50,175 nucleotides of DNA from a virus. The position numbers and the translations under genes are program-made. Under the pieces are notes generated by a model. That model made no database searches, was not told the origin of the DNA, and worked only from the letters and a program-made list of their open reading frames with translations. The stretch spans positions 1 through 50,175 of the IMG/VR virus record IMGVR_UViG_3300032753_000045; one strand, written 5' to 3'. Positions within the stretch are counted from its first letter, which is position 1. The number at the start of each line of letters is the position of its first letter. Shown here one piece after another: positions 3,770 through 21,344 of the stretch.

Positions 3770-3800
3770 TTTTCTTTATCCTTTTTTCTTTAGAACTGTC

Positions 3801-3828: not shown

Positions 3829-3850
3829 CACTTTTTATGATATATTTCTT

Positions 3851-5456: not shown

Positions 5457-5475
5457 CAAAAAAGCAACACAATGC

Positions 5476-5503: not shown

Positions 5504-5526
5504 AACTTATCTTGAAAGGATTAGTA

Positions 5527-5745: not shown

Positions 5746-5769
5746 ACTGATTTAACTAGAGGAAAAATC

Positions 5770-6062: not shown

Positions 6063-6067
6063 ATAAA

Positions 6068-6238
6068 ATGAACGATTTATCGCATGACTTGATTAAGCTT
6101 AAAAAGCTTATTAATCAATTAGAAGTACTAAATGCCAATCCCGGATTGGTCGGAAAAAAATTAATTACAGATGCAGTAGAAGAGATTAAAGTAGCAGTTA
6201 TCCGACTAGAAATTCAGGTGGCGAATTATGCAGACTAG
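6068..6238 (+). CDS. Small helical hypothetical protein (56 aa)
   Basis: ATG 6068 follows TTAGAGGATAAATAAA, a variant of the phage's usual TAGAGGA leader. The predicted product is strongly helical with heptad-like Leu/Ile spacing (DLIKLKKLINQLEVL and EEIKVAVIRLEIQV), suggesting a short coiled coil. It overlaps the following membrane peptide gene by 11 nt. No family was recognised. Confidence 0.65.
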   Translation: MNDLSHDLIKLKKLINQLEVLNANPGLVGKKLITDAVEEIKVAVIRLEIQVANYAD

Positions 6239-6335
6239 TTGGGCTGATAAGGTGGCTATTACTGTAATAGTAATAGCCACTATCATTCTTCTTTCTGCCA
6301 TTCGCCTTGGGATACGATTGGGAGGCTGGGCATGA
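6228..6335 (+). CDS. Tiny single-pass membrane peptide (35 aa)
   Basis: Starts inside the end of the previous gene and ends overlapping the next start (ATGA at 6332). A short polar N-terminus precedes a hydrophobic helix (VAITVIVIATIILLSAI), then RLGIRLGGW, so positive charge follows the span. Function unknown. The tight overlaps on both sides argue that it is translated. Confidence 0.5.
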   Translation: MQTSWADKVAITVIVIATIILLSAIRLGIRLGGWA

Positions 6336-6511
6336 CTACTTGGACATTATCTGAATTAAACGACAATACGAACGTAAAACCGAATGACTGCCCTGCGGTC
6401 ATTATTGATAGCGGCGCTAGCGTGGAGCCGATTCCGTTTGCGGGGATGGTTGATCTTTCGATTACAAACGGCGAACAAAAGATTGAAATTAAAAAGACAT
6501 GGGAGTTCTAA
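6332..6511 (+). CDS. Small hypothetical protein (59 aa)
   Basis: ATG 6332 overlaps the preceding stop and the TAA shares its last base with the next ATG (TAATG at 6509-6513). GGGAGGCTGGGC just upstream can serve as Shine-Dalgarno. The product is soluble and acidic with a beta-strand-like centre. Not recognised. Confidence 0.65.
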   Translation: MTTWTLSELNDNTNVKPNDCPAVIIDSGASVEPIPFAGMVDLSITNGEQKIEIKKTWEF

Positions 6512-6675
6512 TGGACGAAAAAGAAATAGCCAAATTGCAAGAAAAGTTGGCTAAAGCATTAGCTGACGCGGACTATTGGCGCCTCATGTACGATAAATTA
6601 ATTAAGCATATCGATCATCAAGATAGTTATGTGCGTCATTTAGAACAACAGGTTTGGGGAGGGAAAACATTTTGA
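6511..6675 (+). CDS. Small helical hypothetical protein (54 aa)
   Basis: ATG 6511 overlaps the previous TAA by one base. The N-terminal half is a charged helix (KEIAKLQEKLAKALADA) suited to a coiled coil, followed by an aromatic segment and His-rich stretch (KHIDHQDSYVRHLEQQ). The coding end carries GGGGAGGG, the Shine-Dalgarno of the next gene, and the stop overlaps that gene's TTG start. Not recognised. Confidence 0.65.
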   Translation: MDEKEIAKLQEKLAKALADADYWRLMYDKLIKHIDHQDSYVRHLEQQVWGGKTF

Positions 6676-7157
6676 GCGAAGATATTAATGATGATTGGGA
6701 AGGCACGCCGATTACTAACGCAGAATATAGGCGTATCAGAGAACTTCAAAAACGAGCATTAGAGGATTTGAAAACTTTTGAAGATAAACACCCAGCACCA
6801 ACATCGCAAGGTATTGGCGATGTTAATAGTACTGCTAAAGGTTCTGGCGCTCGCTATAACGATGGCAAACCCAACTTTAGTTTAATTCCATTGGTAACTT
6901 TGGAAGATGAAGCGCGAGTCTGGTCTTACGGCGAACGCAAATACGCTGCATGGAATTGGGCTAAGGGAATGCCTTGGTCAGTACCATTAGCTTGTGCATT
7001 GCGCCATATCTCGGCATGGCAGCGCGGGGAAGAGAACGACGAAGAATCTGGTTTGCCTCATCTTGCTCATGCTATGTGCAATCTGCGTATGTTAATGTTG
7101 TACAGTAAAACGTATCCCGAAGGGGATGATCGACCACCAAAGGAACTAATGCCATGA
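6672..7157 (+). CDS. dATP/dGTP diphosphohydrolase-like protein (DUF5664 type, 161 aa)
   Basis: The C-terminal 105 residues match the phage domain annotated as dATP/dGTP pyrophosphohydrolase or DUF5664: ARYNDGKPNFSLIP, then a helical pair including YGERKYAAWNWAKGMPW, LRHISAWQRGEENDEESGLPHLAHAMCNL, with the acidic and His residues expected to hold metal. About 55 N-terminal residues are a charged extension. The likely start is TTG 6672, because GGGGAGGG (6656-6663) is well placed for it and it overlaps the preceding stop. The family includes MazZ of 2-aminoadenine phages, but no PurZ is encoded here, so ordinary nucleotide-pool control or host nucleotide depletion is more likely. Confidence 0.75.
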   Translation: MSEDINDDWEGTPITNAEYRRIRELQKRALEDLKTFEDKHPAPTSQGIGDVNSTAKGSGARYNDGKPNFSLIPLVTLEDEARVWSYGERKYAAWNWAKGMPWSVPLACALRHISAWQRGEENDEESGLPHLAHAMCNLRMLMLYSKTYPEGDDRPPKELMP

Positions 7158-7717
7158 GCTATATTTTGTACCCGTTTTTAGTCATTATTAATTTAATTGG
7201 CACTTTGCTAACGTATCCGTTAGCTTTTATCGTTGCTATTTGCTATAGCTATCAAGACGGCTGGTGCAATAACGCCACCGTATGGCAGAACAGCCCGCGT
7301 CTATGGAAGATTTTGTCGTGGTTCCAAGCCCCAGACAATAGCTTAGACGGCGACCAAACATTTCAAGCAAGCCATACCCCTTGCTGGTGGTCTAAAGTCC
7401 AATGGCTATGGCGTAACCCTTTCTATGGGTTTGCTGTCGTGACGTTTGACGGCTCTACTGGCATGTCATATTCAGGGGATCTACATTGCGATGAAAAGAA
7501 CCCGGGGCATATTTTGGTAAAAGGACATGGTTTATTTCAGTGGGTCTATACCAAGCATATTTTTGGTAAGTGTTTATATCTAAACTTTGGCTGGAACATT
7601 CGCGCGTTAGTTGACCCTGCTTTCATAACCCCGGATCAGTGGCATAACAATACCGCTCTGATTGCCAAATATCCTGCTACGTTTGCCTTTAGCCCACGGC
7701 TGGTAAGCTATCAATGA
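7154..7717 (+). CDS. Phage membrane-anchored protein, DUF7338-like (187 aa)
   Basis: An N-terminal hydrophobic hairpin (residues 3-30, FLVIINLIGTLLTYPLAFIVAI) is followed by a Trp-rich soluble part with WFQAPDNSLDGDQTF, WLWRNPFYGF and YLNFGWNIR. This pattern resembles a family of Proteobacteria phage proteins annotated as DUF7338; the match is from memory and not confirmed. Function unknown. It overlaps the previous gene by 4 nt (ATGA) and the next one likewise. Confidence 0.6.
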   Translation: MSYILYPFLVIINLIGTLLTYPLAFIVAICYSYQDGWCNNATVWQNSPRLWKILSWFQAPDNSLDGDQTFQASHTPCWWSKVQWLWRNPFYGFAVVTFDGSTGMSYSGDLHCDEKNPGHILVKGHGLFQWVYTKHIFGKCLYLNFGWNIRALVDPAFITPDQWHNNTALIAKYPATFAFSPRLVSYQ

Positions 7718-7860
7718 GTGCCAATCTCATCATCCTTACAGGCTTGATTTACGCTTACATTTGCGCGGAACAAGCATGGAAGGGGGATATTGGATTGGCT
7801 TGTATGTATGCGGGGTACGCTTTTGCCAACTATGGAGCGTACTTGCTGGCAACTAGATAA
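7714..7860 (+). CDS. Small membrane protein (48 aa)
   Basis: ATG 7714 overlaps the previous stop as ATGA. Two hydrophobic stretches (LIILTGLIYAYICA, then LACMYAGYAFANYGAYLLA) separated by EQAWKGDIG suggest a small hairpin in the inner membrane. No family recognised. Confidence 0.55.
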   Translation: MSANLIILTGLIYAYICAEQAWKGDIGLACMYAGYAFANYGAYLLATR

Positions 7861-7902
7861 TCTTTTATAATTGTTGCATTGCAACATGAATAGGAGATTG
7901 CT

Positions 7903-8025
7903 ATGTTTGATTTTGAAAAGCCTTACAAGCAGTATGAAGAGTTAATAGAACGCGTTAGACAAGTAAACGAGTTCTGGCTTAATTCGGTGTTTTATTCAAT
8001 TAAAGAATTTTTTAAAATTAAGTGA
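7903..8025 (+). CDS. Very small hypothetical protein (40 aa)
   Basis: ATAGGAGA (7890-7897) precedes ATG 7903 at good spacing. The product is one amphipathic aromatic helix (FEKPYKQYEELIERVRQVNEFW, then FYSIKEFFKIK). The gene ends six bases before a strong terminator, as expected for the last gene of a transcription unit. Function unknown. Confidence 0.55.
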   Translation: MFDFEKPYKQYEELIERVRQVNEFWLNSVFYSIKEFFKIK

Positions 8026-8030
8026 TACCT

Positions 8031-8056
8031 AAAGGTTGCAATTAGCAACCTTTTTT
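8031..8056 (+). terminator. Rho-independent terminator of the rightward early operon
   Basis: AAAGGTTGC (8031-8039) pairs perfectly with GCAACCTTT (8045-8053) around a 5-nt loop and is followed by a run of T (8051-8056). It lies directly after the 40-aa gene. Confidence 0.85.
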
Positions 8057-8479
8057 CATACTTATAGGTATAAAAAGATATACAAATATCGGACAACAAT
8101 GTCTTATTTTTGCATGACTTTTTATTGAAATTTCATGCACTTACAAGCGTTTTTAAAATAGGTCAGCTAACAATAACAAAGTAAATTTTTAGCAAATAAC
8201 AAAGTAATAAAAAGTTTCCCGAACGGGAAGAATTGATAAAAAAATGTGCAAATGTAAAGAAATATTCCCGAACGGGATATTTTGTAAGAAAAAGTTATAA
8301 CATTCACAATGTTAAACACAACAAAAGTATGTTAAATGACTCATTAATAAGGCTTTAAGTTATTTAAGGACTCTTTAATAAGTCAACAAATGTGTAGTTA
8401 GTTACACATTTCATGTACAAAATGTCAACAAAAACGTACATATACCGACAATATGTCTACAAAACTGCAAATTTTGTAC
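8057..8479. repeat. 420-bp AT-rich repeat region at the convergent gene junction
   Basis: No gene is seen. The region holds several kinds of short repeats: TCCCGAACGGGA inverted repeats at 8217-8228 and 8266-8277; AATAACAAAGTAA twice (8172-8184, 8195-8207); GACTCWTTAATAAG twice, 31 bp apart (8338-8351, 8369-8382); TGCATGA/TCATGCA arms (8111-8117, 8133-8139); an AAATGTGTA/TACACATTT hairpin (8388-8411); TACAAAA/TTTTGTA arms (8458-8478); and TACTTATAGGT at both edges (8059-8069, 8477-8487). Candidate replication origin or operator region; the role is not shown. Confidence 0.6.
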
Positions 8480-8899
8480 TTATAGGTTGTAGGTTTTAAT
8501 AGGTTCGTGGCTTTTTAAATCTACATTGCAAGCCCATTTAACTGCTTCCTCAGCCGTTAACCCCATCCGCATACATACTTCGGCAGCCATCGCCCCTGAG
8601 CCGATAGCCATAAAGGTTTTAGCTCTTTCCCATTCCAAATCTTCACCGCAATAAAAAAGACCTTCTTTGGTCAATTTTATAAAAGAACTATCAGGTTTTA
8701 GCTTTGGTTTAACTTTGCTTTTTTTGTTGATGTATTCAACTACTTTTTCGCAATCGCTCCAGTTGCCCGCTACACCTAACCAACCACCATCTATGGATAC
8801 AACTTTTTCATCAAAATACTTAATACCAGTATCTTCATCTGAAAACTGACTGTCTGAAACCAAAACTTTATTAGTCCAATCGCCAACAATAGTAGTCAT
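8480..8899 (-). CDS. Proteasome/HslV-like Ntn hydrolase (139 aa)
   Basis: The start MTTIVGDW resembles HslV, whose mature N-terminal Thr is the nucleophile. The order of the active-site residues also fits: SDSQ (D16) lines up with the HslV GDGQ Asp17, and DEKVVSIDGGWLGVAGN (K32) with its Lys33 region. The C-terminal part has FMAIGSGAMAAEVCMRMGLTAEEAVKWA, the typical GSG helix of the fold. At 139 aa it is shorter than host HslV (about 175). It is the last gene of the late operon. Phage Ntn hydrolases of this type are widespread but poorly characterised; substrates are unknown, and removal of Met1 is assumed. Confidence 0.72.
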   Translation of the reverse strand: MTTIVGDWTNKVLVSDSQFSDEDTGIKYFDEKVVSIDGGWLGVAGNWSDCEKVVEYINKKSKVKPKLKPDSSFIKLTKEGLFYCGEDLEWERAKTFMAIGSGAMAAEVCMRMGLTAEEAVKWACNVDLKSHEPIKTYNL

Positions 8900-8901
8900 G
8901 T

Positions 8902-9885
8902 TTACACCTTGTTTATGCAGCCTCTAAACTCAAACTCACCGTTTTGCTCGTCCGATACCATAATTAGTTCTGGCATGAGCATCCTGCCTTGGTCAAAGGA
9001 TAGCATAACGAATCCGGAGCGCCAGTCGAGAGGGTTATCTTCCACATACTCGAAGGTAGGACTCATCGGATCAGCCAAACATCCGGTCTGAACCCCAAAA
9101 AAGTTGCCTTGATAATTTGAAATCGGCTGTACGGCGAGGACATGCGTATGCCCCGTAATGATGTTTGTGTTGCCCGCTGCCAGCAAATTGCTATAACCCG
9201 CCGTGCGTCCACCCTTAAAACGGTGTTTTACAACGGTTTCTTCACCGATCCAAAAGCTCCAACAAGTTTCCCACTCAGGAAAGTGGTATTTCAGGCTAAA
9301 GCCATCTACACCGCTATATTCTGGCACCTTATTAACCAACCATGACTCGTAGCGCATGTCATGGTTTCCTAGCGTCCAAATTAACCGACAGCCGGGAGGT
9401 CTATGTTTAACGATTTCATCAAGGTGATAACGACAATTTTGTAGCTCTTGCAATACCGTGGGCTTGGCATCGTAATTAATCGATGGGAAACGGCTCAAAA
9501 CCTGCCCATCGAAGGCGTCGCCATTGCAGATGATGACCTGTGGCTTAAAGGTGTCAATCATCAACAGGAGGGCTTTAAATGCCGTTGTAGTGGTATCTGT
9601 AAAATGCGCGTCTGAAAACACAATAACGCGCTTTACCTTGTCAACGTCAATGCCTCTTCGGACGTTATGGGCTGCTTGTTCTACTTTTTTGAGTGGGGGC
9701 TTTTTTTCATCCCGTTGAGAATTGCTGGTAGGAAGATCTATCTTGTAGCGAATCTCAAGATTTCGTCGGCGGGTCAAGGCACTTCTAGGGTTTATACCTA
9801 ATTCTTTTCCTACAAGGGTAGGAGAACCTAGTTTTTTCCAAAGTGCAATAAACTCCTCGTCTGAACAAACAGCTTTAAACACCAT
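8902..9885 (-). CDS. Calcineurin-like metallophosphoesterase (327 aa)
   Basis: All metal-binding motifs are present in order: FSDAH (about residue 91), GDAFDGQ, GNHDMRYESW and GHTH, with an H in the linking region. The first 70 residues are a separate basic helical part (TLVGKELGINPRSALTRRRNLEIRYKI) that looks like a helix-turn-helix, suggesting DNA binding. It could be a DNA phosphatase/nuclease or a phosphodiesterase. It sits downstream of lysis genes and one base-pair gap group before the Ntn hydrolase. Confidence 0.85.
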   Translation of the reverse strand: MVFKAVCSDEEFIALWKKLGSPTLVGKELGINPRSALTRRRNLEIRYKIDLPTSNSQRDEKKPPLKKVEQAAHNVRRGIDVDKVKRVIVFSDAHFTDTTTTAFKALLLMIDTFKPQVIICNGDAFDGQVLSRFPSINYDAKPTVLQELQNCRYHLDEIVKHRPPGCRLIWTLGNHDMRYESWLVNKVPEYSGVDGFSLKYHFPEWETCWSFWIGEETVVKHRFKGGRTAGYSNLLAAGNTNIITGHTHVLAVQPISNYQGNFFGVQTGCLADPMSPTFEYVEDNPLDWRSGFVMLSFDQGRMLMPELIMVSDEQNGEFEFRGCINKV

Positions 9886-9901
9886 GTAAAACCCCTATTT
9901 A

Positions 9902-10111
9902 TTAGAATTTACCCGCTATCTTCTTAATCTTTTGTTCCATTTCCCAATCCTCGCGGCATTCTGCGGAGCAAAAACGCCCTTCGGGAATCAATTCATTACA
10001 GCAAAGGCAGTGCCCAGTGTAAGGGTGTTTTTTTTCATTACGAACCGCTTTTATAGCTAATTCACGGTGCAAAGCTTCCATGTCGGACGCTTCGTCAAAA
10101 AAATCGCTCAT
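9902..10111 (-). CDS. Small treble-clef zinc-finger protein (69 aa)
   Basis: A helical N-terminus is followed by CLCC-ELIPEGRFCSAECREDWE, that is CxxC spaced about 12 residues from CSAEC, the pattern of treble-clef fingers in phage TraR/DksA-like or DUF2116-like proteins. The start overlaps the endolysin stop (ATGA). A role in binding nucleic acid or RNA polymerase is possible but not shown. Confidence 0.7.
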   Translation of the reverse strand: MSDFFDEASDMEALHRELAIKAVRNEKKHPYTGHCLCCNELIPEGRFCSAECREDWEMEQKIKKIAGKF

Positions 10112-10557
10112 GCTAAGGTACCACCTACATTTTCATAAAAGGCTTCAAGATGAGCCATTGAATTAGTCCTCTGCCCATAGGGGCTATTAGGCAGACTAGC
10201 CCAAATACGATTGCATCGAATAATAGCATCTTGAAATCTCCCATCATTAATTAACATATCTGCGCCAGTTTCTTTAATCAGTTCTAGCGCAATCATATCT
10301 TGTGCGTGTGGGGAAAAGTCTACGGCGCCTACGCGAGTCTTATAGGCGTCATATATTCGTTCTAATATTTGGTATTTGCCAGCCGCTGTAGAGGTCAAAC
10401 CATTGATGGTGATGTGTTTACGGGGGTGGTCTTTATAGCTTTGAAAAAGTGTTCCGCCATACAGAACATTGTAGCCTTCGTCAGAATGCGCCAATAAATC
10501 TCTGCCAATCTCTGAAAAACCGATGGTTTTAAGCAACGCTATTTCATTGTTGGTCAT
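10108..10557 (-). CDS. Endolysin, lambda-type lytic transglycosylase (GH104, 149 aa)
   Basis: Peptidoglycan-cleaving lysis enzyme related to lambda gpR. Matching blocks: GFSE (catalytic Glu16), GYNVLYGGTLFQSYKDHPR, TSTAAGKYQILERIYDAY, DFSPHAQDMIALELI and CNRIWASLPNSPYGQ. Length is normal for the family. No signal peptide is seen, so it should need the holin to reach the periplasm. It follows the spanin genes and overlaps the Rz gene by 14 nt. Confidence 0.93.
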   Translation of the reverse strand: MTNNEIALLKTIGFSEIGRDLLAHSDEGYNVLYGGTLFQSYKDHPRKHITINGLTSTAAGKYQILERIYDAYKTRVGAVDFSPHAQDMIALELIKETGADMLINDGRFQDAIIRCNRIWASLPNSPYGQRTNSMAHLEAFYENVGGTLA

Positions 10558-11002
10558 CTGGCAGTCCTAATCTTTCGCGTTCGTATTTTTGCAATAGTTC
10601 ATATTTTAGGGTTACTTCAGCGCATTCTCCAGCAAGTAATGTGTACTTGGTTTCTGCATCAATTCTGAGGGAGGTGGCTGATCCTGATAACAGGGGACTG
10701 GAACTTGGTGAGCGCAACCCGTTAGCATAATAGCGGCGCAAAATGATAGTTTTAGCAGCGAGTTCATCTTGAAGTCCTTTAACAATTAAATCGTGTTGTT
10801 GTTTTTTGGCTTTGTTTTCCGCAAGTTGCTCCTTGACGATTCGCGTTTGCTCTTCTTGGTATCTAAGAAACTTATTATGCTCCCAATGCCAAGGAGTATA
10901 GCCAACGCAAAATAGCACCACAGCAGCCAATCCAATTTCGATGTAGGTGATAACATTACCTGAGAAGAAGCCAATGGCTTTACTGAGAAGAGTTTTCCAC
11001 AT
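10544..11002 (-). CDS. Rz: Inner-membrane spanin, Rz-like (152 aa)
   Basis: An N-terminal transmembrane helix (YIEIGLAAVVLFCVGY, about 20-35) is followed by a long charged periplasmic coiled coil (YQEEQTRIVKEQLAENKAKK), as in i-spanins. The outer-membrane partner Rz1 is encoded inside it in another frame (10612-10767). Together they would fuse inner and outer membranes at the end of lysis, which implies a Gram-negative host. Confidence 0.85.
   Translation of the reverse strand: MWKTLLSKAIGFFSGNVITYIEIGLAAVVLFCVGYTPWHWEHNKFLRYQEEQTRIVKEQLAENKAKKQQHDLIVKGLQDELAAKTIILRRYYANGLRSPSSSPLLSGSATSLRIDAETKYTLLAGECAEVTLKYELLQKYERERLGLPDDQQ
10612..10767 (-). CDS. Rz1: Outer-membrane spanin lipoprotein, Rz1-like, nested in Rz (51 aa)
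   Basis: Encoded entirely within the Rz gene in a different frame, as in lambda. It begins MNSLLKLSFCAAIMLTGC: a signal peptide ending in the lipobox LTGC, so Cys18 becomes the lipidated first residue. The mature part is short and proline-containing (VPVPCYQDQPPPSE). AAAGGA lies 6 nt before ATG 10767. Nested position, lipobox and proline content together make this call firm. Confidence 0.88.
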   Translation of the reverse strand: MNSLLKLSFCAAIMLTGCAHQVPVPCYQDQPPPSELMQKPSTHYLLENALK

Positions 11003-11222
11003 TTTTATCTGTCGCTGATTGAGCGCCTACATAAACACCGCTACCGCCAATTAAAGCCCCTAGCCCCATGCCAAAAGCTGAAAAGTCCATTGAGTGATTC
11101 AAAATGGCGTGAATAAAACCAAGAGCAATAAACGATAAAGCCCCTAAAAATAGCGATACGCGACCGACACACCAAGTACGATTATCGTTTTGGGTCAACA
11201 TGTCGACAAAAAACTTTTTCAT
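10980..11222 (-). CDS. Putative holin (80 aa, two membrane helices)
   Basis: Two hydrophobic segments (VSLFLGALSFIALGFIHAIL and FGMGLGALIGGSGVYVGA) separated by a short polar loop, with basic N-terminus and polar C-terminus. This is the size and topology of class II holins and of a common small phage membrane protein. It lies directly before the spanin and endolysin genes. There are other membrane proteins nearby (11401-11664), so which one is the holin is not certain. Confidence 0.6.
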   Translation of the reverse strand: MKKFFVDMLTQNDNRTWCVGRVSLFLGALSFIALGFIHAILNHSMDFSAFGMGLGALIGGSGVYVGAQSATDKNVENSSQ

Positions 11223-11401
11223 TTTTTCTTTTTGGGTGCTGTCTTTTTGGCAACAACTGGGGCTTTTTTAGCTGCGGGCTTACGAGTAGTCGCTTTTTTG
11301 ACCAGTTCTTTCTTTGGTTTTACTGGTACTTCTACTGGGAATTCTGGCAGTTTGGATTCAACTGGTTTTTTACGGAGGAGAGCACAGATTCTAGCGAACA
11401 T
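11219..11401 (-). CDS. Lysine/alanine/proline-rich histone H1-like small protein (60 aa)
   Basis: The second half is a run of KKA, PAKK and APKKKK motifs like the tails of H1-like bacterial proteins; the N-terminus MFARICALLRKKP is amphipathic. It probably binds DNA or another polyanion, but its place in the lysis region leaves open a membrane-related role. The start overlaps the previous stop by one base (TAATG). Confidence 0.6.
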   Translation of the reverse strand: MFARICALLRKKPVESKLPEFPVEVPVKPKKELVKKATTRKPAAKKAPVVAKKTAPKKKK

Positions 11402-11664
11402 TATTTATCCTGTTTGGTATCTAGTTTTGCCATTATCAAGTCTAACGTATGTTCCATTCTTGATAGTCTTTGATCTAAATCAGTCTTTTTAACATATTCA
11501 TTTGGAAGCATTACTTCAAGCTTTTTCATGTCTTTTGCCAATTGGCTCTGGGCATCACTTACTTCTTTTTGACTGCGAGAAATGCTGTTAGTCCACCACC
11601 CAATCAGCCCGCTAATAAACATGTAGGCTAGGGTTATTGCCGCAATAATCGATTCCCAAGACAT
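11401..11664 (-). CDS. Membrane-anchored coiled-coil protein of the lysis region (87 aa)
   Basis: One N-terminal hydrophobic helix (IIAAITLAYMFISGLIGWW) is followed by a charged coiled coil (RSQKEVSDAQSQLAKDMKKLEVMLP) and the module LPNEYVKKTDLDQRLSRMEHTLD, which recurs in small phage membrane proteins near lysis genes. It could be an antiholin or alternative holin. No catalytic motif. Confidence 0.6.
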   Translation of the reverse strand: MSWESIIAAITLAYMFISGLIGWWTNSISRSQKEVSDAQSQLAKDMKKLEVMLPNEYVKKTDLDQRLSRMEHTLDLIMAKLDTKQDK

Positions 11665-11692
11665 GCTTTACCCCTCATTTAAACACTAAAAG

Positions 11693-12127
11693 TTACAGGA
11701 AGTTTAACACTTCTTCTGGTTTTACAAAAGCATCTGGGTTATGTTCCGTATACTCCCACCAAAGAAATTGATTTGTTGCAAGGTATTTGCGGTCTTTCAG
11801 TAAATTAATGTTTTCAGGGTGTCCAAAAATCTTTGGGTCAGAAACTGCCCAAAGCACAATACCCGGTTTGCCTTCGCTCCAAGCTAAATGCTGAAAAAAG
11901 CTATCTACGCCGATCCAAGTGCGGCACTCTTTAATAAGCTGTCGCAGCTCATTCATTGGCAAATTCTTTCGAAAATCAGAAACTAACTGCTTTTCCCCTT
12001 CTACGCCAATCTGAACGATATGTTCATTTTTCGCTATTTCTTGTACAAGTTCTTTCCAATATGGATAGTTTTTGGGGTTTTCTGTACCTTTTAGCAAAGG
12101 TTTGGCAAACGGATGGATTAGGATCAT
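11693..12127 (-). CDS. GT9-like glycosyltransferase, C-terminal domain as separate protein (144 aa)
   Basis: Resembles the nucleotide-sugar-binding half of GT9 (heptosyltransferase-like) enzymes: ILIHPFAK at the start, an IGVEGE stretch, then RTWIGVDSFFQHLAWSEGKPGIVLWA, matching the GT9 signature in which a conserved D.G..H segment follows. An N-terminal GT9 half appears to be fused to the preceding gene's product. The two genes overlap as ATGA at 12124-12127. The pair may assemble into one enzyme adding a sugar to LPS or to a virion protein. Confidence 0.6.
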   Translation of the reverse strand: MILIHPFAKPLLKGTENPKNYPYWKELVQEIAKNEHIVQIGVEGEKQLVSDFRKNLPMNELRQLIKECRTWIGVDSFFQHLAWSEGKPGIVLWAVSDPKIFGHPENINLLKDRKYLATNQFLWWEYTEHNPDAFVKPEEVLNFL

Positions 12128-13089
12128 AGGTAAAGCTTTCTGTAAGCGTTCTCTAGGCTATCTGTCCATTTCCATTGATCCATTTTGGCGTATATATTCC
12201 AAGGCTCTATGTCCCCAAATAGCGATTGCGCTTCGGCGATCGATCTGCCCGGGACAACATCTGGGTAACAAGTGAATACAACAGGATTGGCAATATCACG
12301 CAAAACCCGACTAAAAACGATATGATCACCAAGACCAGAATTAAGCACCACAATAGTAGACCCGTTGTAACGGAGGATATTTCTGAAAATAGCTTCGTCA
12401 TGGTCGTACATTTCCTTTTTAATTTCGCTACGAATGCCCCCTTGCGGGTTTTTTAAATGCCACGAATTGGCATTAGGGACAACTATAACCTCATACCCTT
12501 TTTTATGTAAACCGTAGGTAAATAAAGTTTCTTCCCTATGCGCTATTCGGGATAACCCTAGGTTGTAATCCCAAACGCCAGCGCGGTATAAAAAAGAGCA
12601 ATGTAAGTGTTCTACTTTTTTGACCTCATCGATCATATTCCATTGAATATTGGGTTCAACATCGATGTATTTAATTTTGCCCGTAGCGTTTACTTGCCTT
12701 AGAGGAGGCGTCAAAATGGCGCCGCCCACAGCCCCAAGCCGAGAGGTCTGTAGCGCGTAGCTATACAAATTTTGCAATACATTGGGTTCTGGAATGCAAT
12801 CATCATCTACCCGCCAAACCCATTCGTAACCCATTCTATTGGCTTGTTGATGGATATGGTGTTGCCCTTTTTTGGGCGCGAACTGCCACTCCCATTTAAT
12901 GCCTTTGGCATCCATTTGCTGGAAAAGACTTTGATAAATAAACTCTTTTCGCATATCCAGTGGATCGTCATTATCATCAAAAATGACCAGCTTATCGGGA
13001 AGTCTGGTCTGATTGATAACCGCGTTTAAAACCAAAGGCAAGGTCGTAAAATATCGACCTCTTGTGGCTATGGAGCAGAGTACTTGCAT
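12124..13089 (-). CDS. GT2 glycosyltransferase fused to a GT9 N-terminal-like domain (321 aa)
   Basis: Residues 1-220 are a GT-A/GT2 domain: SIATRGRYFTTLP, NQTRLPDKLVIFDDN, then WRVDDDCIPEP with the metal-binding DDD at 95-97. From about 240 the sequence IVVLNSGLGDHIVFSRVL looks like the beginning of a GT9 fold (GLGDH motif), and it breaks off where the next gene begins. It overlaps the upstream GT2-methyltransferase by 22 nt and the downstream GT9 half by 4 nt. The exact sugar and acceptor cannot be read from sequence. Confidence 0.72.
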   Translation of the reverse strand: MQVLCSIATRGRYFTTLPLVLNAVINQTRLPDKLVIFDDNDDPLDMRKEFIYQSLFQQMDAKGIKWEWQFAPKKGQHHIHQQANRMGYEWVWRVDDDCIPEPNVLQNLYSYALQTSRLGAVGGAILTPPLRQVNATGKIKYIDVEPNIQWNMIDEVKKVEHLHCSFLYRAGVWDYNLGLSRIAHREETLFTYGLHKKGYEVIVVPNANSWHLKNPQGGIRSEIKKEMYDHDEAIFRNILRYNGSTIVVLNSGLGDHIVFSRVLRDIANPVVFTCYPDVVPGRSIAEAQSLFGDIEPWNIYAKMDQWKWTDSLENAYRKLYL

Positions 13090-14312
13090 AGCATTAAATT
13101 AGCGCGATTAGTGGCAGAAAACGGAGCAGGGGTATTCGATATAAACCCTTGTTCACTGATATATTCAAACTCAAAGCCGGGGAAATGGCTTTCATTTAAA
13201 CCATGCAGTTTGTGGTGCTCACCCCAGAATCCTTTAGGTTCATTCCAAGGCACCGAAATTAATAAACGATTGCAATGCTTTTTTAGTTTTTCCACAAGCT
13301 CCAAGCCGTTATCTAAATGCTCAATGACTTCAAAAGCAATAATGTTGGCGGCTTTTCCAAGATCATAGGTATTAATATCAGCATGTACAAAATTTCTGTT
13401 AAAACCCCAATCTTGTTCTTTTGCCACTTCGATAATAATCGGGTCATAGTCTAAGCCAACATAGTCATAGTAACTTGGAAAAAATTGGCTACCGTATCCT
13501 GTAGAACATCCGATTTCCACAATGTTTGTTCTATCATCCAGATTTTTTGCAGCCCATTCATACCGCGCAGTTTCTCGCGAAAACACAGAATCGCCTTTTA
13601 AAAATACGGCTCGTTCATAGTTATTGGATAACAAATAACGGTAATGATCTATGTTCCATTTTTTAGCTAGGCGCAATTTATTTGCATGGAATTTTAATGA
13701 ATAATCAGGCACTAATTCAGGATCATGAACAGTACCTTCGGCAACATGGTAGATAGGAAAATCACCCCGATAGCCCACATCTATTAGCCTAAAGCCCGCA
13801 TCTGTAGCTCGTTTGCAAAAGTCTATATCTTCGCAGCCGCCCGTTTCAAAGGATTCGTCTAGTACGCCAATATCAACAAATACTTGGCGGTCAATCATGG
13901 TACAAAAGAAAACGCCGAACGGTTGATTTGTAATACGAGAATTTAAAGTTAAAACAGAAGCGATGTCGCCAACATCTAGTCGTTTTAACCAATCATTTTT
14001 TGGTTGTTCTAACAGCAAAGTGTCGTTATTAAGTAATACTATTTTATGCCCAATAGCATTCAAAATTCCTTGATTAATAGCTTTGGCAAAACCTAAAGGT
14101 TCATTATTCCAAACTATAAACAAATTCGGAATAGCAGTTGATAGATAGTCTAAATAAAATCGAGTATTATCAGTACAGCCATTAGCAGAAATGACCAACT
14201 CTATGTCGGTCATTTCCGTGTATTTAATTATGGAGTCAATACATGGTTTTAAATATTTCTCACAATTATTGTAAGTCGGTATAACTACCGAATATTTTGG
14301 GGATTGCATCAC
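13068..14312 (-). CDS. Bifunctional GT2 glycosyltransferase and SAM-dependent methyltransferase (414 aa)
   Basis: Domain 1 (about 5-215) is GT2: YSVVIPTYNNCEKYL, LGFAKAINQG, LLNNDT with the NND metal site at 95-97, and GCEDIDFCKR. Domain 2 (about 245-410) is a class I methyltransferase: NIVEIGCSTGYG (264-274) binds SAM, GLDYD (286-290) is the acidic end of strand 2, and FEVIEHLDN matches the common small-molecule type. The natural reading is transfer of a sugar followed by its methylation. It heads the modification cassette downstream of the fibre and 2OG oxygenase. Confidence 0.85.
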   Translation of the reverse strand: MMQSPKYSVVIPTYNNCEKYLKPCIDSIIKYTEMTDIELVISANGCTDNTRFYLDYLSTAIPNLFIVWNNEPLGFAKAINQGILNAIGHKIVLLNNDTLLLEQPKNDWLKRLDVGDIASVLTLNSRITNQPFGVFFCTMIDRQVFVDIGVLDESFETGGCEDIDFCKRATDAGFRLIDVGYRGDFPIYHVAEGTVHDPELVPDYSLKFHANKLRLAKKWNIDHYRYLLSNNYERAVFLKGDSVFSRETARYEWAAKNLDDRTNIVEIGCSTGYGSQFFPSYYDYVGLDYDPIIIEVAKEQDWGFNRNFVHADINTYDLGKAANIIAFEVIEHLDNGLELVEKLKKHCNRLLISVPWNEPKGFWGEHHKLHGLNESHFPGFEFEYISEQGFISNTPAPFSATNRANLMLCKYSAP

Positions 14313-14331
14313 TAATCCTTTAAAGTTTAAT

Positions 14332-14697
14332 TTATGGTAACGCTACCCAAGATTTGGTTGTTTCATCCCAGGTATACATTTTTCCATCCGCAGGGAAAGG
14401 AATAGGCGCTTCCCAAGTCCAATTTGTTTTATTTAGTGTCCAACTTGGAAACGGTTGTGGAGCATAGAAAACATCGTCTTTTGCGTCATAGATATAACCT
14501 ATGCCAGCGTAATTTCCGCGTAGGGCTTGACCACTATCAGGTTTTCCGTCATTACCGTAATGTACCCCACCTTTAGTATTGTATGAGGTTTGGATCCACT
14601 GCCCGGGAGAAGAGTCAACAAACGTCTTAAAAAAATCGGCTTCAGCCACAATTACTTGTGTAACAACATTGTTAACTACTTTTGCATAATGGCTCAT
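14332..14697 (-). CDS. Tail-fibre-associated conserved phage protein (121 aa)
   Basis: Resembles a protein common near tail fibres in T4-like cyanophages and other aquatic phages: ends like WIQTSYNTKGGVHYGNDG, NYAGIGYIYDAKDDVFYAPQPFPSW and MYTWDETTKSWV. This is recalled similarity, not a database match. It is beta-rich with many aromatic residues and no catalytic motif, so a structural or assembly role with the fibre is likely. Confidence 0.65.
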   Translation of the reverse strand: MSHYAKVVNNVVTQVIVAEADFFKTFVDSSPGQWIQTSYNTKGGVHYGNDGKPDSGQALRGNYAGIGYIYDAKDDVFYAPQPFPSWTLNKTNWTWEAPIPFPADGKMYTWDETTKSWVALP

Positions 14698-14733
14698 AAA
14701 ATCACCTTATTAATCACTGTTAAAAAATTATAG

Positions 14734-14976
14734 CTAATTTGCTTCTTCACTAACTATAGTAGCGGTAGAAGTTTCCCTATCTATAATCATATATCCATGA
14801 CAAGCAACATTCCAATCTTCAGAATTTTCCTCTTTTTCACTAGAAGAGGGAACTTCTAAAACAAAATTTTTAAAAAGAAACTCTTTACCGTTTTCAAAAA
14901 CTCTCCAGACATGTTCAGAAGTACCACGCCCGGGCAATCCTCTGGTCTTATTAAATCGAATTAAATATTTATTCAC
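14734..14976 (-). CDS. Small conserved aquatic-phage protein (80 aa)
   Basis: The start NKYLIRFNKTRGLPGRGTSEHVWRV and the end MIIDRETSTATI resemble small proteins found beside fibre and oxygenase genes in aquatic phages. No motif indicates enzyme activity. The gene abuts the 2OG oxygenase stop and is in the same operon. Function unknown. Confidence 0.6.
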   Translation of the reverse strand: MNKYLIRFNKTRGLPGRGTSEHVWRVFENGKEFLFKNFVLEVPSSSEKEENSEDWNVACHGYMIIDRETSTATIVSEEAN

Positions 14977-15660
14977 TTAAATAACTTCCGGGAAAGTCGT
15001 TTGACAGATTGGCGGAATAAATTGAGGGTAAACAGTAAAATGAATAAAACGCATACTTTCTGCCGCCACGCTTCTACTAAAAGAATGCGCGAGCCAAGAG
15101 TTTGTAAGCATCAACATACCGGGTTTTGCTTCGTAACAAATAGAATTACTTGCTGGGGTAGCTTTAGTAGCATCTTTTTCACGCAAATTTATTTGAACTT
15201 TTCCAGCTTTTGGATCATGGAATAAAACTTTTGAACAGTTTTCAGGGCACTCTAAAAAATAAAACCCAACAATTTGAGTTCCAAATCCGTGTACATGCTG
15301 CTCCATACCCGAATGTTTTGCATGGTCTTGACACCAAAACTCATCAAAAAAAGTTCTAATATTGGTTAAATCATAGCCTTGCGAATCTAAGATATCCCAA
15401 GACACATTTAAGATATAGTCCGTTAGCTCTTTAATATTAGGGTCATCGTGAAAATTTTGTGTTTGATAGACCGGATATATTTCATCTAACTGTGGTTTTT
15501 CAACTTTAGCTTTTTGAACATAAAGCGCCGCAACTTCCCGAGCTTTTTCTAAATATTCCGATTTCATGATGGAATAAATAGCGGTTGGAAAATAATACTC
15601 TACTGAAAATTGATCGCTATTGTTTAGATCAACTTTCGCTTCTTGATTTTCAGTAGTCAT
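14977..15660 (-). CDS. 2-oxoglutarate/Fe(II)-dependent oxygenase-like protein (227 aa)
   Basis: Jelly-roll oxygenase pattern: HSGMEQHVHGFGTQIVGFYFLECP, LFHDPK, and the distal W-AHSFSRS with the third metal His, then RFIHFTVYP with the Arg expected to hold 2-oxoglutarate. Similar proteins are common near fibres of aquatic phages. The frame runs upstream to a GTG at 15699 overlapping the fibre gene, but ATG 15660 is preferred: AAGGA (15682-15686) lies 13 nt before it. It may hydroxylate a virion protein or sugar; the substrate is unknown. Confidence 0.72.
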   Translation of the reverse strand: MTTENQEAKVDLNNSDQFSVEYYFPTAIYSIMKSEYLEKAREVAALYVQKAKVEKPQLDEIYPVYQTQNFHDDPNIKELTDYILNVSWDILDSQGYDLTNIRTFFDEFWCQDHAKHSGMEQHVHGFGTQIVGFYFLECPENCSKVLFHDPKAGKVQINLREKDATKATPASNSICYEAKPGMLMLTNSWLAHSFSRSVAAESMRFIHFTVYPQFIPPICQTTFPEVI

Positions 15661-15679
15661 TTTAAAAATATTTTCCTTA

Positions 15680-18600
15680 TTAAGCTGTGTAAGTACCACT
15701 ACTTGTAAACGTATGAATCGTGTTTCCGCTACTAGAGGTTACTGTACCACCAGTGCCTTTTTGACTTCCAGTATACGATAGAATAAATATACCAGATCCA
15801 CCTGACCCGCCGTTATTATACCCAGCTCCACCACCACCACCCGTGTTGGTACCGCCATTACCGCCGTTACCGTGGCTGCCACCACCCCCTCCGCCAGCGC
15901 CGCCTGATCCGCAACCGCCGCCGTTGAATCCAGAAGCACCGCCACCGCCACCAGCATAAGTTATTGAAGTACCAGAAATGCTAGATGATTTACCAGCACC
16001 ACCACTACCTGAGGAATTTCCGCAACCAAAGCAAGGGCTACCATTACCGCCTGCGGCATTGGCACCGCCACCGCCGCCGCCATTATACCGACGACCTGTA
16101 CCACCGTTATTGCCTTGTCCAGCAGTACCAGAACCACCAGATGAACCACAAGGAGAACCAGTATAACCACCAGCACCAGAACCACCACTACCAGAATTGG
16201 CACCACCACCGCCTACTGCAGTAACAGTAGAAATAGTGCCGCCAGAAAATACGGAATTGCTACCATTAGATGATTGACCACCGCCACCACCAACGGTAAC
16301 GGTATATGCAGTGCCGACTGACACAGTAATAGAGCCAGTTAGATAGCCGCCTGCGCCGCCCCCACCACCACCGCTTCCGCCCGCAGAGCCGCCGCCGCCG
16401 CCAGCAACAATTAGATAGTTAACACTATAGGCAGTATTAACTAAGGCATTGTAGCCCCATACAGGTAGCCATCCTTGGGTAGAATCTATATAAACAAAAG
16501 TAACTGCTTCGCGCTGTAGATTTAATAAACCGTTACCAGTGCCACCCAATAATTTATTGCCATTTGGGTTAATTGTTAAATTATTGGTAGAAAAAGTACC
16601 AGCATAATCCACCAAAGAAATTTGTTGTCCAGAAGTTGGGCTTGCTGGCAAAGTCATGGTAATCCCACCGCTAGTGGTATTAATTGGATAACCATTACCC
16701 GCAGAAGCAGTGAAATTGGCAGTTTGAACTGATTGCCATGTTACGCCGCCGTTTACACCAGAATAACCAGAAATACCGCTAAATCCAGAATATCCAGATA
16801 TACCAGAACCGCTATATCCAGAATAACCAGAAATGCCTGATCCGCTATATCCAGAAATACCCGAATAGCCACTAATTCCGGAAAAACCTGATGCGCCGTT
16901 GATACCGCTATAACCAGAAATACCGGAATAGCCGCTAAATCCGGAAGTGCCAGTAGCACCATTTTGACCGCTATAGCCTGATATTCCACTAAAACCACTA
17001 TAGCCAGAAATACCAGAAAAACCGCTGTATCCGCTTACGCCTGAGCCGCTATAGCCGCTAATGCCACTATATCCGCTAATACCAGAATATCCCGAAATGC
17101 CTGAGAAACCGCTGTAGCCGCTTACGCCGCTTCCAGAATAGCCGCTAGTGCCGCTATAACCACTAAAACCAGATATACCGCTATAGCCACTATAACCGCT
17201 AATACCTGAATAACCAGATACACCGCTAAAACCAGAAATACCGCTATAGCCAGAAGTCCCATTTTGTCCTGAATATCCACTTATGCCAGAAAAACCACTA
17301 TAGCCAGAAATACCTGATCCGCTATAGCCTGATATGCCGCTATAGCCGCTAATTCCTGAAAAACCGCTGTAGCCGCTAATGCCCGAATATCCGGAATAGC
17401 CGCTAGCGCCATCGTGACCGATAGTTCCGTTTTGACCAGAGAATCCACTAAAACCAGACTGTCCAACTGTGCCTGAATAACCAGAAATACCGCTGTAACC
17501 TGAAATTCCTGAATAACCACTTATGCCAGAGTAACCACTAAAACCAGACAATCCTGATCCGCTGTAGCCTGATATTCCTGAACCGCTGTAACCAGAGTAG
17601 CCGCTATATCCACTAATTCCTGATCCTGAATAGCCTGAATATCCGCTAATACCAGATGCACCATTTGTGCCATTAGCTCCAGAATAACCGCTATAACCAC
17701 TTGTGCCTACTGCGCCACTATAACCGCTATATCCGCTTGTTCCAATTGCACCGCTGTAGCCAGAGTAACCGCTTATACCCGATCCACTAAATCCTGATAT
17801 ACCGCTATAGCCCGAATAACCAGATATGCCAGAAGCACCATTTGTTCCATTGCTACCAGAAAAACCAGAAATTCCACTAAATCCAGAATAGCCGGAATAA
17901 CCAGAAGTTCCAACAGCCCCAGTAGCAGTAATTGTCCAATTGCTAAAAGATGCTCCACCACTAACATATGTCATATTGACTGTTAATGTAGTGCCTGTAA
18001 ATGCTGTAATTAAGCCTTCCATAAATTGTGATGGCACAGATGTAGCAAATACTCTGATATATTGCCCAACAGCAAAAGCTGTAGTGGAAGCATCTAAATT
18101 AGTAGTAAAAGATTTGCTACCAAGGCTTAATGAATTTGATCCTGTTGCGGTCAATCCATAATATCCCAAACCGGAATATCCGCTAAAACCGCTAATTCCT
18201 GAAAATCCAGAAGCTCCATTAATCCCGCTGATACCACTAAACCCAGATATGCCGCTAAAACCACTATAGCCACTAATTCCACTAAAACCTGAATGACCTG
18301 AAATACCAGAATATCCACTGATTCCGCTAACCCCCGATGTACCCGAAAACCCTGAAAAACCTGAATAGCCAGATACACCGCTTCCTGAATAACCAGAAAT
18401 ACCAGAACCCGAATAACCGCTTATTCCAGAAAATCCTGAAATTCCCGAATAACCACTGATACCACTGTATCCGCTGATTCCAGAATAACCACTTTCTCCA
18501 CTAATACCAGAAAAACCTGAATAGCCTGAAGTTCCTACAATTTGACCAGCATTAAACCAAATAGTGCCATTCCAAATCCATAGATCACCATCAGAATCTA

Positions 18601-19633
18601 CAATATAAGCATCATTTACTTGATTACCTGTTGGTGGTAAATCAGCGGGAGTGGCAACAGAGCCTTTGATATTGATGTTTGCGCCTTGTTGACCGCTAAA
18701 TCCACTAAAACCAGAATATCCAGAATAGCCAGAAGTACTCAAACCTGAGTAACCCGAGATACCGCTATAGCCTGACTCCCCAGACCATCCGCTATATCCA
18801 CTAATACCTGAAAATCCGCTATATCCAGAATAGCCAGAAGTACCCACACCAGAAAATTGTGTCCAAACAATCGGCGTAATTCCAATCGTTCCAGATTTTG
18901 GAGCAATAACTACCCATCCAGTACCGTGATTATCTGTTCCATATTCAATGAAAGTAAAAGATCCGGGTACTTCGCTCCAAACATTCATGTCAAGTGCTCG
19001 AGTCCAAGCACCCGCGGCTGCAACATAGATACCATTTTCGGCAGCGTTATCTTGATCTTTTACGCAAACACGGTCGCCAGCTACAGTAGTGTAGCCGTCA
19101 ATAGTTTGTAAACCTGACAGAGTAATATTGCCGCCGCCTTTAGATACAGGGAGGGTAGCAACTTGACATTCTGCTTTTGCAACCATACCTTGTGCGATTG
19201 CATCGGCATATTGTTTGTTAACTAAATCATTTTGATTAACAGGTAAAGTATTTACTTGACCTGTAACCGTAAACATATTTTGAAACGCGGCTGAATATAA
19301 ACCGTTTTCTAAACCTTCTATTTGAACGAAAGCACTACCAGTACCCGCAGTCATCAAATTGACTACAAAATCTCCGATATTCCATGCTCTTGGAACTGTA
19401 CCTTCTTCGCCTCGAGTAACTGTCCAAACATCGCCTGTTACATTGGTAACATAAACAATTTCGTTAATTAAACTATTTGTTGCATTAACTATTGTTGCGG
19501 TAAATGCTTGCCCTGTAGCGGGCGAAGGAAAGTTAACAGAAGTCCCGCTTGCAACTGTGATCGTAGTATCAGTACTACTTACAGGAAGTGCAAGTGCAGT
19601 TTGGGCTTGATTGGAGAATAATAGTATTGCCAT
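15680..19633 (-). CDS. Very large tail fibre/adhesin with collagen-like and glycine-rich domains (1317 aa)
   Basis: Parts in order: an N-terminal attachment domain of about 130 residues shared with the protein at 19932-21344; a conserved stretch (VAKAECQVATLPVSKGGGN, NGIYVAAAGAWTRA) typical of phage fibres; about 700 residues of G-[Y/F/I]-S triplets interrupted by small non-repeat islands; a beta-rich block (about 990-1060); and a glycine-rich C-terminal domain with many GGGGG runs that ends FTSSGTYTA. The triplets imply a collagen-like trimeric shaft, though almost without proline. The glycine-rich end resembles polyglycine-II-type receptor-binding adhesins. Probably the host-recognition fibre. 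Confidence 0.88.
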   Translation of the reverse strand: MAILLFSNQAQTALALPVSSTDTTITVASGTSVNFPSPATGQAFTATIVNATNSLINEIVYVTNVTGDVWTVTRGEEGTVPRAWNIGDFVVNLMTAGTGSAFVQIEGLENGLYSAAFQNMFTVTGQVNTLPVNQNDLVNKQYADAIAQGMVAKAECQVATLPVSKGGGNITLSGLQTIDGYTTVAGDRVCVKDQDNAAENGIYVAAAGAWTRALDMNVWSEVPGSFTFIEYGTDNHGTGWVVIAPKSGTIGITPIVWTQFSGVGTSGYSGYSGFSGISGYSGWSGESGYSGISGYSGLSTSGYSGYSGFSGFSGQQGANINIKGSVATPADLPPTGNQVNDAYIVDSDGDLWIWNGTIWFNAGQIVGTSGYSGFSGISGESGYSGISGYSGISGYSGISGFSGISGYSGSGISGYSGSGVSGYSGFSGFSGTSGVSGISGYSGISGHSGFSGISGYSGFSGISGFSGISGINGASGFSGISGFSGYSGLGYYGLTATGSNSLSLGSKSFTTNLDASTTAFAVGQYIRVFATSVPSQFMEGLITAFTGTTLTVNMTYVSGGASFSNWTITATGAVGTSGYSGYSGFSGISGFSGSNGTNGASGISGYSGYSGISGFSGSGISGYSGYSGAIGTSGYSGYSGAVGTSGYSGYSGANGTNGASGISGYSGYSGSGISGYSGYSGYSGSGISGYSGSGLSGFSGYSGISGYSGISGYSGISGYSGTVGQSGFSGFSGQNGTIGHDGASGYSGYSGISGYSGFSGISGYSGISGYSGSGISGYSGFSGISGYSGQNGTSGYSGISGFSGVSGYSGISGYSGYSGISGFSGYSGTSGYSGSGVSGYSGFSGISGYSGISGYSGISGYSGSGVSGYSGFSGISGYSGFSGISGYSGQNGATGTSGFSGYSGISGYSGINGASGFSGISGYSGISGYSGSGISGYSGYSGSGISGYSGFSGISGYSGVNGGVTWQSVQTANFTASAGNGYPINTTSGGITMTLPASPTSGQQISLVDYAGTFSTNNLTINPNGNKLLGGTGNGLLNLQREAVTFVYIDSTQGWLPVWGYNALVNTAYSVNYLIVAGGGGGSAGGSGGGGGGAGGYLTGSITVSVGTAYTVTVGGGGGQSSNGSNSVFSGGTISTVTAVGGGGANSGSGGSGAGGYTGSPCGSSGGSGTAGQGNNGGTGRRYNGGGGGGANAAGGNGSPCFGCGNSSGSGGAGKSSSISGTSITYAGGGGGASGFNGGGCGSGGAGGGGGGSHGNGGNGGTNTGGGGGAGYNNGGSGGSGIFILSYTGSQKGTGGTVTSSSGNTIHTFTSSGTYTA
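16750..18850 (-). repeat. Degenerate repeats encoding the collagen-like shaft
   Basis: Short near-repeats rich in CCAGAATA, CCGCTATA and variants encode (GYS)(GFS)(GIS) triplets. Synonymous codons are mixed freely, so the DNA is much less uniform than the protein. The repeat is interrupted near 17900-18165 and 18540-18700 by non-repeat segments. This is coding repetition, not a CRISPR array, and is a likely place for length variation. Confidence 0.85.
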
Positions 19634-19931: not shown

Positions 19932-21344
19932 TTACGCTGTATAGGTTCCAGAAGATGTAAATTGCATGATAGTAAAGGCGCCAGAAGTAGTAACAGTTGG
20001 GCTTCCAGTAGTAAGACCTGTGTAATTTACTGTAGGTACAGAGAGATACCCTACACCAGAACCGCCAGTGCCGCCGGGCGCGCCTGATCCACCGCCACCG
20101 CCACCGCCAGTATTAACTGTTCCGTTCCCCCCAATGCCGCCATTTGAACCGCTACCGCCGCCGCCATTTCCGCCAGAAGCTGGTGTTCCCCCAAAAGCTG
20201 CACCGCCGCCGCCGCCGCCAGCTAAATAAATGGTAGAGCCTGTGATAATGGTGCTTAGACCAACACCGCCATTTCCTGCGTGTCCATAGCCGGGTCCACT
20301 ATAAGGGTACGCAGTTTGACCCGCCGCTCCAGCGCCACCGCCACCGCCGCTAGCATAACCATAACCTTGACCACCGTTATTACCTTGACCAGAAGTTCCC
20401 GCGCCGCCTAATGAACCGTAGTTACCAACAGAGCCGCCTTGACCGCCGCCGCCTGATCCGCCGTTTGCACCTTGTCCAGCTCCGCCTGAACCGCCGCCAA
20501 TTGCAGATACGATTCCAGTGATACTAGAATTTCCACCATTAGTAACGCTAGCACCGCCAGCGCCAATGATGAAGGTGTAAATAGTTCCGGGTAAAAGATT
20601 TGTTGTAGAAGAAAGATATCCGCCAGCACCGCCGCCACCGCCATCGTTCCCACTAGTACCCCCACCACCGCCGCCAGCAACCAGCACATAGGATGCTGGA
20701 TACGTCACGATTGGTGGCACTACGCTTGTACCTGAGTTTTGTAAAACGTAAGCATCAAAATTTGAGCTATAAGTCAAAATTAAAGGATATCCCGCCCAAA
20801 TATCGTTGGCAATCAACGGATAGTTATTACCTTTAACAATCGGTTTAGCAGCCAAAATGGTTGACCCCAATGTAAGCTGCAACGTAGCCGCGCCTGTATT
20901 GGCATTTAAACCTTTTAATATAAAATTAAAACCATCGGGTAACGTAGTAAGATTTGAGTTAATTTGACTTGTTAAGGCATTCGCTGTTCCGCCAGCGGTA
21001 TTGAAAGAATATTTACCGTTTTGAAATTGATCGACTTGAATTAAGCTTTCCATTGTCCCCTTAGTAGGGTACATACCAAAGCTGTTCCCGGTAAGCCAAG
21101 TTTGCGCCAATGTGCCTTCTTGTGCTCGAACAACCGTAACTGTATCGCCAGAACGAGCAGTTACTAATACTATTTCATAACTAGTACTGGAGTTATTGTA
21201 AATAGTAGCTAGAAAATTTTGACCACTTACTGGAGTTGGAAATAACGAACCAGTGCCTGCCTGAAGATAAATGGTAGTATCAGTGCTAGTGATCGGGCTT
21301 GCCAATGCAGATAGAGCATTATTAGCGAATTGCAGAATAGTCAT
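19932..21344 (-). CDS. Short tail fibre with glycine-rich C-terminal adhesin domain (470 aa)
   Basis: Paralogue of the 1317-aa fibre at both ends. N-terminal: shared pattern STDTTI..A.GT...FP.P.SGQ.F.ATI, later VT..GDT.TV.R..EGT...W. C-terminal: starts SYVLVAGGGGGG, continues as glycine clusters with YLAGGGGGG, and ends FTSSGTYTA, identical to the long fibre. It lacks the collagen-like shaft. The two may sit on the same baseplate and bind related receptors, the short one near the plate and the long one further out. Confidence 0.82.
   Translation of the reverse strand: MTILQFANNALSALASPITSTDTTIYLQAGTGSLFPTPVSGQNFLATIYNNSSTSYEIVLVTARSGDTVTVVRAQEGTLAQTWLTGNSFGMYPTKGTMESLIQVDQFQNGKYSFNTAGGTANALTSQINSNLTTLPDGFNFILKGLNANTGAATLQLTLGSTILAAKPIVKGNNYPLIANDIWAGYPLILTYSSNFDAYVLQNSGTSVVPPIVTYPASYVLVAGGGGGGTSGNDGGGGGAGGYLSSTTNLLPGTIYTFIIGAGGASVTNGGNSSITGIVSAIGGGSGGAGQGANGGSGGGGQGGSVGNYGSLGGAGTSGQGNNGGQGYGYASGGGGGAGAAGQTAYPYSGPGYGHAGNGGVGLSTIITGSTIYLAGGGGGGAAFGGTPASGGNGGGGSGSNGGIGGNGTVNTGGGGGGGSGAPGGTGGSGVGYLSVPTVNYTGLTTGSPTVTTSGAFTIMQFTSSGTYTA

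Follow-up and report, generated by a model that had tools for sequence, protein, structure and literature searches.

A glycosyltransferase and methyltransferase gene cassette linked to serine-repeat, collagen-like fibres in bacteriophages

The viral record IMGVR_UViG_3300032753_000045, analysed here over 50,175 bases (the window), encodes the tail sheath, baseplate, portal and terminase of a contractile-tailed phage (myovirus). By terminase and sheath, its nearest isolates are Pantoea phage PdC23, Klebsiella phage Chronis and Yersinia phage YenM_29.18. The minus strand carries a gene for a collagen-like fibre with a serine triplet repeat and, downstream of it, a cassette of glycosyltransferase (GT) and methyltransferase (MT) genes. 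We describe this pairing and the evidence from other viral genomes that the enzymes may be dedicated to the fibre.

The serine-repeat fibre and the genes behind it

The fibre gene (15680..19633) encodes 1317 amino acids, divided into an N-terminal part also found in proteins of PdC23, Chronis and YenM_29.18, a shaft of Gly-aromatic/Ile-Ser triplets, and a Gly-rich C-terminal domain. The protein matches the Pfam Collagen family (PF01391) at 5.5e-32 and shows the Gly-X-Y repeat of the collagen triple-helix family. The shaft, which is the proposed acceptor (16760..18844, ends approximate; about residues 264-965), contains about 185-200 triplets, and the count over runs of at least four is 200. 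Among these 200, the third position is occupied by Ser in 156, Thr in 2 and Pro in 1, and the second by Tyr in 62, Ile in 39 and Phe in 29. The original prediction, made from the sequence of this stretch, had described about 700 residues of triplets presenting Ser or Thr at nearly every third position, with proline almost absent. The scarcity of proline is borne out, and 700 residues is a fair measure of the span of the shaft, but two non-repeat inserts mean that not all of it is triplet, and “Ser or Thr” should read Ser. The scarcity of threonine is worth noting if the role of the repeat is simply to carry hydroxyl groups.

The serine codons of the window shaft are mixed (85 TCN and 71 AGY), and the codon set switches at 85 of 155 steps between neighbouring serines. 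A change between TCN and AGY must pass through another amino acid or requires a double change. The mixed and switching codons therefore indicate that serine itself is under selection, rather than being spread by copying of DNA, and they exclude the repeat as an artefact of duplication at the DNA level. Averages over 186 fibre open reading frames (ORFs) of this Ser type are similar in kind, at 0.85 for Ser, 0.03 for Thr and 0.39 for the AGY share. The repeat can reach considerable length: one Ser-type ORF of nearly 10 kb, immediately before its cassette, has 857 triplets (L086:2527-12351), and another has 768 (L162). The C-terminus of the window fibre aligns, through low-complexity sequence, with the Gly-rich part of a neighbouring 470-residue protein (19932-21344). 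This neighbour has a Gly-rich C-terminal domain (PF21722) that resembles the fibre C-terminus, and its relatives are found in backbone-related phages.

Behind the fibre, on the same strand, come genes for a 2-oxoglutarate (2OG)-Fe(II) oxygenase of 240 residues (14977..15699), an 80-residue protein whose Pfam match is below threshold (14734..14976), a 121-residue protein (14332..14697; phrog_7759, 1.4e-28), a GT2A-MT fusion of 414 residues (13068..14312), a GT2B-GT9N fusion of 321 residues (12124..13089) and GT9C, a 144-residue C-terminal GT-B domain of a GT9 enzyme (11693..12127). Several gene ends overlap or abut, and the start of GT9C overlaps the stop of GT2B-GT9N. ORF positions and Pfam and PHROG matches confirm the predicted gene order and domains. 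As to the further claim of a single operon, promoter-like and terminator-like sites in the gene run are no commoner than in shuffled sequence, and we infer only that fibre and cassette may form one transcript.

A closer look at the enzymes shows two GT2 domains and a GT9 enzyme that appears to be split. GT2A-MT matches Glycos_transf_2 (1.4e-16, residues 8-102) and Methyltransf_23 (5.9e-8, residues 254-355), and the sequence matches of GT2A in the Protein Data Bank (PDB) are generic GT2 enzymes, the third-best being named GalT1. GT2B-GT9N matches Glycos_transf_2 (1.3e-6); its N-terminal GT9 part is not called by Pfam, and a sequence search of the fusion against the PDB returned no meaningful match. 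The structural model of this fusion (pLDDT 90.7) has GT-A matches to RmlT, chondroitin polymerase, a protein GalNAc-transferase and TarP. Its invariant motifs are RxDDD, HREE and G-x-G-D-H, with G252, G254, D255 and H256 unchanged across 36 sequences. GT2B thus has the profile, the GT-A fold and the DxD-type motif of a GT2 enzyme, and GT9N has the G-x-GD motif of a GT9 N-terminal half. GT9C matches Glyco_transf_9 (PF01075, 5.9e-7, over the cut-off) at profile positions 172-218, which belong to the C-terminal part, and its model (pLDDT 87.5) has TibC, WaaF and WaaC as top fold matches, as expected of the GT9 C-terminal half. Two loci (L139 and L178) encode GT2 and both GT9 halves in one ORF, which supports the view that GT9N and GT9C form one enzyme. 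Four others (L125, L164, L175 and L192) have MT, GT2B and GT9N in one ORF. In L106 an in-frame stop (1273-1275) splits an MT-GT2B fusion early in the GT2B domain, and intact relatives of this fusion exist.

Linkage of the cassette to the serine repeat

A scan with GT2B-GT9N found relatives on 80 viral contigs, 61-81% identical. Including the window, the cultured phage P19250A and the contig L324, 47 loci have at least 3 kb of sequence upstream of the cassette, and in 46 of them a Ser-type, Pro-poor collagen ORF lies upstream, mostly within 400 bp and up to 5.8 kb away. The sole exception, L079, carries Ser-type repeats elsewhere on its contig (81 triplet matches vs. 0 for a reversed control pattern). 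A cassette kept without a Ser repeat, which the original prediction had named as evidence against itself, was looked for among these loci and none was found. The L079 cassette sits in a large glycan cluster (1778-11891) on a 75-kb contig that also has a ribonucleotide-reductase-like gene; by eye, the cluster includes several GT2 enzymes, MTs, a GT9, and sulfotransferase-like and epimerase-like proteins.

The linkage was also approached from the repeat, with 120 Ser-type stretches picked solely for the DNA pattern of the repeat, without reference to the enzymes. GT2B or GT9C accompanies 72 of the 120 (51 in the same piece, 18 in the full record and 3 on known cassette contigs), whole records having been searched as a check on chance absence from short contigs. 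With Pro-type (Gly-Pro-Gln) collagen stretches as a control, the enzyme appears in 0 of 120 pieces and 0 of 35 full records. The Ser-type and Pro-type sets come from different habitats and phage lineages, which keeps their comparison from being a clean statistical test. The comparison of relatives that the original prediction had called for thus finds cassette and repeat together from both directions.

Other arrangements are also found at these loci. A second, usually shorter Ser-type ORF lies about 4 bp after GT9C in L031-L033, L035, L037, L039, L040, L057, L058, L060, L064, L115, L122, L142 and L155, which places the cassette between two Ser-type fibres. In two of the 48 Ser-type stretches without the GT2B family, a different enzyme is encoded downstream of the fibre, a GT8-GT9 fusion in one (L133:7113-8723) and a GT9-containing protein in the other (L137:4401-6485); these are possibly non-homologous replacements of the family. 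The cassette enzyme also occurs in viral records of 75 to 494 kb. Among 84,980 species genomes it appears in 3, all of them contigs of metagenome-assembled genomes, and one of these (L324) has an adjoining Ser-type fibre; a cellular origin was considered and set aside, as these matches are likely viral.

The clearest view of the pairing comes from P19250A, a cultured siphovirus of freshwater Methylophilales (PMC8163748). This phage encodes a 1201-residue Ser-type fibre followed by MT, GT2B-GT9N and GT9C in the order of the window, without the 2OG gene, and its enzymes are 60-67% identical to those of the window. The two phages are not similar in terminase, portal or capsid, and no ORF outside the module is common to them. 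PdC23, Chronis and YenM_29.18, on the other hand, keep the backbone and the fibre N-terminus of the window, yet in none of them do the triplets run beyond four, and the cassette is absent. Repeat and cassette therefore seem to come and go as a unit. An attempt to count independent lineages by protein sharing was abandoned, as single-linkage clustering of six-frame ORFs from mosaic genomes chained 65 of 68 loci into one group, and the backbone comparison is accordingly that of the window with P19250A.

It could be argued that the enzymes act on phage DNA or on a virion component other than the fibre, and that their linkage to Ser-type fibres arose historically, by hitch-hiking within a block of structural genes. 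Capsid and tail tube glycosylation in mycobacteriophages, as cited in PMC12619734, offers a parallel, phage GTs can modify DNA, and linkage is not mechanism. This reading is nevertheless very improbable, given that fibre and cassette co-occur while the surrounding genes differ, that L079 keeps both though they lie apart, and that the Pro-type fibres come without the cassette.

Cassette core, accessory genes and the target of the enzymes

Of 133 cassette loci in all, the 95 whose sequence spans the cassette were used to count its composition. GT9C is present in all 95, and GT2B-GT9N with GT9C forms the constant core, joined by MT in 85 and GT2A in 69. The 80-residue and 121-residue genes are not part of this core: the former occurs in all 7 loci with the 2OG gene and in L038, while the latter is an occasional passenger (9 of 133).

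The 2OG oxygenase is likewise a separate accessory. The protein matches PF13759 (2OG-FeII_Oxy_5, 5.4e-9) and phrog_81 (1.3e-14), and His135, His137 and His205 are conserved in four sequences. Its position directly after the fibre in the window, these three histidines and the precedent of mimivirus L230, which hydroxylates and glucosylates collagen lysines (PMC9614988), would fit a scheme in which the enzyme hydroxylates the shaft before glycosylation. We regard this scheme as improbable. The gene occurs in just 7 of 133 cassette loci, at varied positions and sometimes upstream of another fibre gene, and the shaft offers serines that already bear a hydroxyl and almost no proline. Dedicated hydroxylation, as originally predicted, is thus unsupported because the gene is so rare. 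The 2OG and 80-residue genes move as a pair (window 14734-15699, L007:2676-3550, L051:7888-8783), possibly as a modifier of a different fibre.

For the GT and MT genes, the dedication to the fibre that was first predicted holds up better, being strongly supported at the level of sequence comparison by the two-way linkage, the Pro-type controls and the two unrelated backbones. We consider it likely that these genes constitute a phage-carried module that O-glycosylates, and often methylates, the serines of the adjoining Ser-repeat fibre. Several observations weigh against this. Forty-eight of the 120 Ser-type stretches come without a GT2B-family enzyme, many of them being short pieces, and the downstream genes of L117/L197, L166, L169 and L188 include no recognised GT, showing that the repeat can occur where this cassette is lacking. 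In a few loci the cassette is kilobases from the fibre, and the loci are not independent, since a handful of bog lakes and related phages account for many of them. The folds are also neutral: GT2B matches polysaccharide and protein transferases about equally, and GT9C, although its model is nearest to TibC, a protein heptosyltransferase of adhesins, matches WaaF and WaaC about as well. Such matches give the fold, and not the acceptor or the sugar.

An alternative proposal is that the enzymes alter host surface polysaccharide (lipopolysaccharide (LPS) or O-antigen) to block superinfection, with the adjacency to the fibre reflecting a shared host-recognition island. GT9 is the family of the LPS core heptosyltransferases, LPS heptosyltransferases are the nearest NCBIfam models to the cassette proteins (all matches far below cut-off), and pelagimyophage GTs near tail-fibre genes have been read as host O-chain modifiers (PMC7029224). 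We nonetheless judge host modification unlikely, as it leaves unexplained both the dependence on Ser-type rather than Pro-type repeats and the same module and repeat in unrelated phages. O-antigen systems of the gtrABC type use membrane-bound transferases and a flippase. The cassette proteins have no membrane-segment-like stretch (the highest 19-residue hydropathy is 1.36), and the cassette has no flippase gene. The linkage favours the phage's own fibre over the host O-chain as the target of the GT2B family.

While gene content, linkage and folds are observed, we infer the acceptor, the sugars, the order of their addition, the assembly of the split GT9 and the benefit as follows. In the cytoplasm of the infected cell, GT2B (GT-A), as a soluble enzyme, and a GT9 made of two chains, its N-terminal half fused to GT2B and its C-terminal half separate, would place a short glycan on the serine hydroxyls at every third fibre residue. 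GT2A, where present, would add another sugar, and MT would cap the glycan by O-methylation. As the cassette shows no sugar-nucleotide genes, the sugars would be drawn from the nucleotide-sugar pools of the host. The sugar coat would probably stiffen or shield the Pro-free shaft, which is the weakest step of the proposal. Stabilisation by a sugar at the third position is an idea that comes from glycosylated invertebrate collagens. By this analogy, a horizontally shared phage system of GT2 and half of a split GT9 might O-glycosylate the Pro-free shaft so that glycoserine stands in for hydroxyproline as the stabilising residue and makes an otherwise unstable fibre possible, an extension that we hold to be tentative and rather doubtful.

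The routine annotation of a phage GT encoded close to a fibre is as a modifier of the host surface or of DNA; the large reciprocal linkage described here points instead to the phage's own fibre. If this is correct, the module would make a bacterial virus a tractable model for the dense O-glycosylation of collagen-like repeats, and would suggest a way in which triplet fibres without proline may be stabilised or shielded. A simple sequence rule, a Gly-X-Ser fibre with a GT2-GT9 enzyme, could then be used to re-annotate many freshwater phages. P19250A, with its freshwater Methylophilaceae host, is a cultured phage in which the link is directly testable.

Comparison with known systems

Each element of the proposed system has a precedent, while their combination, and this linkage of fibre and cassette, were not found in the literature searched, which mostly did not extend to subscription papers. 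The nearest fold match of GT9C, TibC, belongs with AAH to the bacterial autotransporter heptosyltransferases (BAHT), where a GT9-type GT-B enzyme modifies a surface adhesin. TibC is a single chain with an N-terminal β-barrel and an iron finger that assembles into a dodecamer, whereas the phage GT9 is split and fused to GT2B. The iron finger of TibC needs four cysteines (PMC4358343), and GT9C has a single one; the BAHT model TIGR04414 has no match among the window proteins, and L139 scores 16 bits where the cut-off is 200.

The streptococcal Fap1 locus (gtf1, gtf2, gly, gtf3, dGT1, galT2) similarly joins a serine-repeat adhesin to a dedicated GT cluster (PMC5207161), and the GalT1 match of GT2A is a further resemblance. 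Fap1, however, is a cellular adhesin without collagen triplets, exported by the accessory Sec system and served by another set of GTs. Among viruses, mycobacteriophage virion proteins are glycosylated, the targets, as cited in PMC12619734, being the C-termini of capsid and tail tube proteins rather than a Ser-collagen fibre. Mimivirus L230 modifies the virus's own collagen-like proteins, although as a lysyl hydroxylase-glucosyltransferase it acts on lysine (PMC9614988). A064R of the chlorovirus PBCV-1, likened here by description, is a virus-encoded fusion of two GT domains with a methyltransferase and both assembles and caps a glycan of the virus's own virion protein (PMC9614988), in this case an N-glycan on the capsid protein of a eukaryotic virus.
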